Source: Magnetococcales bacterium WMHbin3 (GTDB lineage: Bacteria > Pseudomonadota > Magnetococcia > Magnetococcales > Magnetaquicoccaceae). Taken from it: a stretch of 61,865 bases of DNA. Made by a program: the position numbers and the translations under genes. The stretch spans positions 1-61,865 of the forward strand of contig PDZX01000020.1 of assembly GCA_002753185.1 (NCBI GenBank), given 5' to 3'. Below the pieces are notes generated by a model, which saw nothing but the letters and a program-made list of their open reading frames with translations, did no database searches and was not told the DNA's origin. Shown in pieces: positions 38,689 to 40,143 of this stretch (position 1 is the first letter of the stretch; every line of letters starts with the position of its first letter).

Positions 38689-40143
38689 TCATTCGGTTGA
38701 ACGATAAAAAATCGTCGATAATTTGCCATCATGCCATTTCCCCTTGTAACCCCGTCCCGACGAGAACACGAATTCGCCCTCGCCATGCATCCTGCCGTTC
38801 TTCCACTGGCCAATGTACTTGGCGCCATCGGAATACAGGAAGGTCCCCAACCCATTTTTGCAATCCCCTTCCATGCATCCCTTGGTCAATTTGGCTGTTT
38901 TTTCCTTTTTTTCCGCGAGTTCCTTTTCAGCGCTTTCCTGCGCCAACCGTTCCTTTTCCAGGCGTTCCTTTTCGGCGTTTTCCTTTTCCAGACGTTCCTT
39001 TTCCAGACGTTCCTTTTCCAGGCGTTCCTTTTCCAGGCGTTCCTTTTCCAGGCGTTCCTTTTCCAGGCGTTCCTTTTCCAGGCGTTCCTTTTCCAGGCGT
39101 TCCTTTTCCAGCCTGGCCTTCTCCTCTTGCGCCTGTTCGGGCGGGGCCACGGTTTCGGTTTTGACCGGCCTGGCGGGCAGCGCTTCCGGCTCGCCATATT
39201 GACGGGCCTGGTGGGAAAAGAGATTCAGGCCGAGAAACACCCCGAAGCCGAGCATCAGGGCAGCGGTGACGAAAAAGATGACGCGCCAGTCGCGCAATTT
39301 TTGAATGTGCCGGCGCAACTGCCGCGTTCCGGAGGCCTGATCCGCCTCCTGGGAGTGGAGAATGAGGTCCATCATGGCGCGGCGCTCTTCGAAGCCGGGG
39401 GGTTCCGGACTCTTTTCCACCATGCCGGTCTTGACCAGCACCGCGTAGAGGTCGCGCACGGAAATGGCGAAGCCGCAGGCCTGTTTCGGGGCGCACTCTC
39501 CGTCGATCCGCTCCATGAAATCGAGGAGATCCTGGCTGTCGGCCATGGGGATGGATTTGCCCCGTTCGCTCAGGAAGACCTCCCAGACCTGCAGCCGCCG
39601 CAAATCGAACATCAGATTGTCGGTGACGCCGATGCCTTCCTGATGAAGGACGAAGGCCAGCAGGGCTTCGGAGAGGCCCTCGCGGGAGACGGGGGGGGCG
39701 GGCTTGCGTTTCGGACGCCGACCTGCCATGGGATTGGCGGTCAGGAAGCCCGATTGATGCAGGACCGTGAAGTACTCCGCCAGGGTGGAGGCGAATCCGT
39801 GGCGGAACGCCTCGCCATCGGTGGCGACGATCCACTCCAGGAAATTTTTGACGTGGCCCATCTGGACCTCTTCCAGGGGGATGCCCTGTTCGGTCAGATA
39901 GGTCTCGAAGCGACGGATGCGCGCGGCATCGAAGGAGGCATCCCGTCCGGTATCCCGGCAAAAGGCGAGATAGGCGCGCAATCCCTTGGAGGAGGGTTTG
40001 GACGCGACCGGGTGCCATTCTTGCCGCACCGCCACCTGAGCGTCGCATTGGCGGCAAAGGGGCGTGTCGTCGGCATCGACCTGTTGCGACTCATCCAGGT
40101 CAATGGCGCCGCCGCATTGCGTGCAGATCAGCTCTTTGTCCAT
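38689..40143 (-). CDS. Membrane protein: zinc ribbon, two recombinase core-binding-like domains, EKERL coiled coil, MORN repeats
   Basis: 484 residues. A zinc ribbon at 7-33 (CTQC and CRQC). Two all-helical stretches at about 50-145 and 155-250 resemble the SAM-like core-binding domain of tyrosine recombinases (RIRRFETYLTEQGIPLEEV, then LHQSGFLTANPMAGRRPKRK), but no recombinase catalytic domain follows. A single TM segment at about 287-308, an EKERL coiled coil at 340-420, and two MORN repeats at 424-475 (YSDGAKYIGQWKNGRMHGEG). With one TM helix, the N-terminal zinc ribbon and the C-terminal MORN region lie on opposite sides of the membrane. The combination is not one I recognise. The start is uncertain: no strong ribosome site precedes it, and the frame is open 25 codons upstream. 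Confidence 0.8.
   Translation of the reverse strand: MDKELICTQCGGAIDLDESQQVDADDTPLCRQCDAQVAVRQEWHPVASKPSSKGLRAYLAFCRDTGRDASFDAARIRRFETYLTEQGIPLEEVQMGHVKNFLEWIVATDGEAFRHGFASTLAEYFTVLHQSGFLTANPMAGRRPKRKPAPPVSREGLSEALLAFVLHQEGIGVTDNLMFDLRRLQVWEVFLSERGKSIPMADSQDLLDFMERIDGECAPKQACGFAISVRDLYAVLVKTGMVEKSPEPPGFEERRAMMDLILHSQEADQASGTRQLRRHIQKLRDWRVIFFVTAALMLGFGVFLGLNLFSHQARQYGEPEALPARPVKTETVAPPEQAQEEKARLEKERLEKERLEKERLEKERLEKERLEKERLEKERLEKERLEKENAEKERLEKERLAQESAEKELAEKKEKTAKLTKGCMEGDCKNGLGTFLYSDGAKYIGQWKNGRMHGEGEFVFSSGRGYKGKWHDGKLSTIFYRSTE
38949..39112. repeat. 15-bp coding tandem repeat (EKERL units)
   Basis: About eleven near-identical 15-bp units (TTCCTTTTCCAGGCG on the plus strand) lie inside the membrane-protein gene and encode the pentapeptide EKERL. 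Two variants with AGACG and one interrupted unit (EKENA) are present. Units are in frame, so slippage changes coiled-coil length without breaking the gene. Confidence 0.9.

Follow-up and report, generated by a model that had tools for sequence, protein, structure and literature searches.

A recombinase-fold protein that has lost recombinase function and binds DNA is already known, namely MrpR (YopR), the repressor of SPbeta treated in PMC10516654; YopR is also discussed in PMC8612738. In the 61,865 nucleotides (positions 1-61,865) of contig PDZX01000020.1 of Magnetococcales bacterium WMHbin3, called the window here, one minus-strand gene (38689-40143) encodes a 484-residue protein, P0001, with two units related to the core-binding (CB) domain of tyrosine recombinases. 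MrpR has both recombinase domains and still binds DNA (PMC10516654), whereas in P0001 the CB half alone is present and appears to be off DNA and reused in a predicted membrane protein. The handles L, G and C below stand for loci, genomes and contigs.

Several membrane systems share single features with P0001. The layout of TolA and TonB, a single transmembrane (TM) helix towards the N terminus with an extended periplasmic linker that is helical or rich in Pro, resembles that of P0001, but the TolA profile TIGR02794 stays below its cut-off in P0001 and no C-terminal TonB/TolA domain was matched in Pfam. The zinc ribbon of GltJ docks a cytoplasmic partner, and GltJ carries GYF and TonB-like parts; it is not known to have a CB unit or MORN. 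Pfam gave no match to GYF or TonB_C in P0001 at E <= 1, and the zinc ribbon of GltJ/AgmX from the gliding machinery of Myxococcus is possibly similar to that of P0001, the match being a weak one (7zok, E 0.09). GltJ/AgmX is a predicted integral membrane protein according to PMC3169522. Heliorhodopsins fused to MORN or a zinc ribbon also place these domains on a membrane protein, but the excerpt of PMC8612252 locates MORN at the cytoplasmic N terminus of the rhodopsin and mentions no CB unit. In the titles and abstract openings listed, mostly from outside subscription journals, neither this family nor the presence of CB units in membrane proteins is described; one listed paper, on ubiquitin-like proteins (PMC1779556), contains both 'Magnetococc' and 'zinc ribbon'.

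The core-binding units and the missing catalytic half

Both P0001 units, residues 52-141 (39721-39990, minus strand) and 158-249 (39397-39672, minus strand), matched the recombinase CB fold by profile and by structure comparison of the predicted model. PF02899 was matched at residues 75-109 with 22.7 bits (cut-off 22.3), and the AlphaFold2 model contains two four-helix units at residues 53-130 and 159-238. A CB unit from a class of relatives that end in cytochrome c was modelled separately (predicted local distance difference test score 84.8, core blocks 94-97), and the 50 structural matches listed for it comprised 45 recombinases or integrases, four phage regulators (SroF, MrpR and YopR twice) and one untitled fragment; the profile of this unit recovered unit 2 of P0001 at E 3.6e-9. 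The PF13495 match in L132 remained below its cut-off, and a Foldseek search against viral structures returned many integrases, none at E <= 0.001. These profile matches, supported by the predicted structures, show a relationship between the units and the CB domain of recombinases. The earlier note had described two integrase core-binding-like stretches and had set a profile and structure check of the fold beforehand as its refuting test; matches were found, and the description stands.

Like the CB domain of Xer/Int recombinases (PF02899, PF13495), the P0001 units have the four-helix fold, the length and a conserved proline at the end, but P0001 lacks the catalytic domain, has a mostly non-basic DNA-inserting helix, carries the CB unit in duplicate and places it before a predicted TM helix. 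No catalytic domain of a tyrosine recombinase was matched in P0001 by Pfam and TIGRFAM-type profile scans, and the recombinase box G-[LMC]-R-x-x-E was absent by pattern search from all 38 uncut module proteins of the class, as the earlier note had seen for the R-H-R-Y domain in P0001. The same box is present in 8 of 9 Xer open reading frames (ORFs) of the class, the ninth ending at its contig edge. Other recombinase boxes occurred singly in six module proteins (HxxR in two, LGH..Y in four) and never in combination; P0001 itself has none of the boxes searched for by pattern. In a tree of 97 alignment columns built from MORN/ankyrin, cytochrome and Xer units, the MORN/ankyrin units (96/93) and Xer (100/100) were separate and the cytochrome group was without support (21/0); this 97-column tree did not resolve the source recombinase of the module.

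Basic residues of the DNA-inserting helix

According to PMC5241119, the four-helix bundle of the XerH CB domain and its helix alpha-F enter the major groove and provide most of the base-specific contacts. Helix alpha-F, the last helix of the CB domain, is taken here as the equivalent of helix D of the P0001 units. Units of eight class Xer proteins, 13 recombinases from outside the class, 33 MORN/ankyrin units and 15 cytochrome units were aligned, and five basic Xer columns, which correspond to P0001 residues 181, 224, 225, 230 and 234, were tested for lysine or arginine. In this column order, the basic residues were found in 7, 8, 8, 8 and 6 of the 8 class Xer and in 3, 11, 7, 13 and 10 of the 13 outside recombinase units, as against 0, 1, 0, 6 and 7 of the 33 MORN/ankyrin units and 0, 5, 0, 0 and 0 of the 15 cytochrome units. 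P0001 is basic at only one of its ten tested positions (R230).

The mean net charge of helix D was +4.8 in class Xer, +4.2 in the outside recombinases, -1.0 in the MORN/ankyrin units and -0.5 in the cytochrome units. Helix B showed no comparable drop (-0.9, -0.8, 0.0 and +0.2 in the same order), which argues against an effect of whole composition behind the charge loss of helix D. The MORN/ankyrin units keep other positions, namely D180 (24 of 33), R183 (26), E188 (27) and L191 (32), with the signature FDxxRI...E.fL. The CB module is thus probably no longer a DNA binder, and the suggestion of the earlier note that P0001 could tie DNA to the envelope is not supported, because most units have lost the basic residues with which this helix would insert into DNA.

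Recurrence, architecture and topology of the module

P0001 has 11 homologues at 30-86% identity, including one in the independent metagenome-assembled genome nNGHbin2 (JADGAR010000008; 80% in the best tblastn segment, to 87%) and one in Magnetococcus sp. YQC-5 (44% across residues 1-320), so the architecture is not a chance observation. Protein-database searches returned 3, 3 and 1 proteins, P0001 itself counted. The class was searched in 48 genomes with profiles A2 and A4, followed by inspection of the ORFs; A4 was built on 37 of 44 units after seven near-copies from L037, L040, L045 and L086 had been removed, and in alignment A1 the row of L037 begins two residues too late and that of L039 three too early. 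Apart from true Xer proteins, 39 module proteins were tabulated: 14 double-unit MORN proteins including P0001, eight single-unit MORN proteins, 15 CB-TM-cytochrome c proteins, one ankyrin protein (L083) and one double-unit protein cut at its contig end (L048). At least four further module matches stand outside this table (G009:C203, G017:C106, G013:C45, G013:C33, L031). The Pfam MORN scan covered 5 of the 22 MORN proteins, the others being assigned by patterns and matches, and every one of the 14 scanned proteins of the cytochrome class exceeded the PF13442 cut-off, the fifteenth (L135) being assigned by its CxxCH site. Our comparison shows at the sequence level that CB units head proteins with three C-terminal kinds, MORN, cytochrome c and ankyrin, with a hydrophobic segment between in nearly all; the cytochrome c and ankyrin ends lay beyond the view of the earlier note.

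The genome of the window alone encodes six module proteins, on C144 (the P0001 gene), C72, C140, C108 and, twice, C9. In L089, on C9, two CB-TM-cytochrome c genes lie in tandem on one strand, at 1931-2968 and 3090-4286, 121 bp apart. The L083 gene (4226-5995) encodes a protein of the order zinc ribbon-CB-zinc ribbon-CB-TM-ankyrin, which suggests that the duplicated unit may be zinc ribbon plus CB and that P0001 may have lost its second ribbon. Three cytochrome-class genes (L124, 1888-3249; L125, 1699-3123; L128, 1211-2524) encode basic DRRKPGFDRR-like repeats ahead of the CB unit. The genome of the window also encodes a small MORN protein (L005 on C43, 1243-1797) whose start looks by eye like a signal peptide and which begins CxxGxCxxGxG, as do the MORN ends of the membrane proteins.

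Among 398 genomes of the phylum, the zinc-ribbon plus CB profile A3 matched 19 (E <= 1e-10), every one of them within the class. Scores of the cytochrome-class profile A5 exceeded 100 bits in 13 genomes, none of them outside the class, and reached about 40 bits in two genomes from elsewhere; one of these matches (L146) has both recombinase boxes, and the other (G243, a 366-residue frame at 40.8 bits) was left unread. Matches of A3 and A5 together put the module in at least 27 of the 48 class genomes; at this sensitivity it was not seen in the other 21, some of which are incomplete, although one (G037) is a single contig. A shorter unit profile matched 64 genomes outside the class at E <= 1e-5. 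Of 13 distinct ORFs read there, which leave 51 of the 64 genomes unread, both recombinase boxes are present in 12, and the remaining one, cut at its end, resembles a phage-type integrase. The restriction of the module to the class holds for this sample and is no proof.

The cytochrome c class serves as a built-in topology marker for the module. Attachment of c-type haem takes place in the periplasm, and in all 15 proteins of this class the CB unit precedes the haem site CxxCH in the chain, so there is a strong case that their CB unit should be cytoplasmic. A hydrophobic segment is above threshold in 14 of the 15 (L126 has none), and five of the 14 have a second one within the CB unit. In P0001, the hydropathy scan, made on an ORF 25 residues longer, predicted a single TM helix at residues 288-306 of P0001 (39226-39282, minus strand), with six lysines or arginines in the 15 residues before it and one in the 15 after. 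A TM helix was called in 23 MORN/ankyrin proteins; its N side was richer in lysine and arginine in 18 of them, tied in five and poorer in none, which points to the same N-in arrangement as in the cytochrome class. The MORN class is thus predicted to be N-in/C-out, from the haem sites in relatives and the charge bias, and P0001 is a predicted single-pass inner-membrane protein.

Other features of the locus and possible roles

The P0001 gene is a single ORF whose ATG starts at 40143 and whose stop lies at 38689-38691; coordinates, strand and frame check out in the sequence. All features of P0001 lie on the minus strand, in the order zinc ribbon, two CB units, predicted TM helix, charged linker and MORN. 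The zinc ribbon that the earlier note had named is present as C7-x2-C10-x19-C30-x2-C33 (40045-40125), by Cys pattern and alignment. TIGR02098 (MJ0042) is above its cut-off in L048, L081, L082 and L083, and P0001 itself gives no match. The chain runs through the TM helix to a MORN end (38692-38886), as the earlier note had it; one MORN repeat passes the Pfam cut-off (PF02493, residues 443-463, 31.9 against 22.5 bits). By alignment, the Cys pair C423/C428 of this end and the four ribbon cysteines are invariant in 12 sequences including P0001; if the MORN class is N-in, the pair would lie in the oxidising periplasm. Pfam matches to DUF7576, Zip and Extensin were below cut-off and were discarded.

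Between the TM helix and the MORN end lies a charged linker (38919-39111), predicted to be helical and periplasmic and encoded by 10.9 copies of a 15-bp tandem repeat that gives EKERL pentads. The earlier note called this stretch a coiled coil, but its pentads suggest a charged single helix more than a heptad coiled coil. The linker measures 71-238 residues (the L037 value including 34 masked) and is E/K-rich in two of 11 proteins (the window and L037) and Pro- or Ser/Thr-rich in nine, with conserved flanking ends, as expected of a spacer.

A Sel1-repeat protein of 564 residues with 11 Sel1 stretches is encoded 10 bp downstream (36984-38678, minus strand), likely co-transcribed here with P0001. 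The earlier note was right about this neighbour but not about a stable pairing: it is adjacent in only two of 14 loci, the window and L037, so that the adjacency does not extend past the closest relative, and was therefore rejected as a conserved partner. A different 301-residue Sel1 ORF lies upstream in L045 (about 2.3 kb) and L046 (1.0 kb), and no similar Sel1 ORF was found near the module gene in the other ten of the 14 loci, some with short flanks. In seven loci (L038-L044, Pfam names taken from L039 alone) the MORN gene is followed by one homologous to a DUF3641 radical-SAM gene, with SapC in six and homologues of tig, clpP, clpX, lon and hup in five; being housekeeping genes, these neighbours give no functional hint. 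The tig, lon and hup genes of the window lie at 26.0-32.4 kb on the opposite strand. Divergent from the P0001 gene, 40331-40702 encodes a 123-residue Cys-rich protein whose start looks by eye like a signal peptide; it has a homologue at the equivalent place in L037 (9737-10108) and matched no family above cut-off in Pfam and a further profile scan. A 954-residue ORF with CoA_binding and Succ_CoA_lig domains (34039-36903), which we take to resemble an ATP-citrate lyase subunit, has a 367-residue ORF directly upstream (32935-34038), and the two are possibly reductive tricarboxylic acid cycle genes. Some neighbours of the cytochrome-class genes resemble, by eye, sugar or glycosyl-transfer genes.

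On balance, we lean towards P0001 being a docking arm in the cytoplasm, linking the interior of the cell with a MORN end in the periplasm, and not a DNA binder. The CB fold, released from DNA, would together with the zinc ribbon bind a cytoplasmic protein or pair P0001 with itself, one TM helix and a spacer would join this part to an exchangeable periplasmic domain, the charged linker would cross the periplasm, and the MORN end may sense or hold an envelope partner. MORN proteins of known structure are dimerising protein-protein modules (PMC7725318), which would suit the periplasmic end. What weighs against this is that unit 2 of P0001 retains K220, R230 and K238 in a helix D of net charge +2 (unit 1, net 0) and that a basic linker, RRPKRK at residues 142-147 (39703-39720, minus strand), follows unit 1; among the aligned relatives it is kept in L037 only. 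These residues, the fold of a DNA-binding domain and the precedent of MrpR, which lost recombinase function and kept DNA binding (PMC10516654), speak for a CB pair and zinc ribbon that still bind the chromosome and anchor it to the envelope through residues different from those typical of Xer. We regard such a tether as unlikely: the Xer basic columns are mostly non-basic in both groups of module units, the mean helix D charge is negative, and the C-terminal recombinase-fold domain of MrpR, which according to PMC10516654 presumably forms a clamp on DNA jointly with the CB domain, is missing in P0001.

Rather unlikely, too, is a passive TolA/TonB-like strut in which the function lies with linker and MORN and the cytoplasmic units serve just as an anchor. 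The interchangeable linkers between conserved ends, a weak TIGR02794 match and a higher density of invariant residues in the MORN end, with 17, than in the CB stretch, with 22 over a greater length, fit it, but that match reaches 23.6 bits against a cut-off of 59.45, largely on low-complexity linker, and the recurrence of CB units with cytochrome c or ankyrin ends is unnecessary for a mere anchor. A redox or stress receptor, in which the module is the output half and either cytochrome c or MORN can act as the sensor for one shared cytoplasmic target, seems very unlikely to us; three C-terminal domain kinds and six such proteins in one genome favour it, but the scanned proteins carry no fused signalling domain and none recurs, by eye, among the neighbours, and the MORN/ankyrin units cluster apart from the cytochrome units, which makes a shared target a guess.

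Returning to the docking arm, we put forward a wider proposal more tentatively: Magnetococcales may have made the clamp half of a recombinase into a general cytoplasmic plug for lineage-specific one-TM envelope receptors, with a stripped and often duplicated CB part, a zinc ribbon in one branch, and swapped outer cytochrome c, MORN or ankyrin ends, which would be a new module for signalling or docking across the membrane, derived from a DNA recombinase. If true, a DNA-clamping fold has been converted to a cytoplasmic adaptor, and these proteins would be testable candidates for a link between the interior and the envelope in these bacteria.
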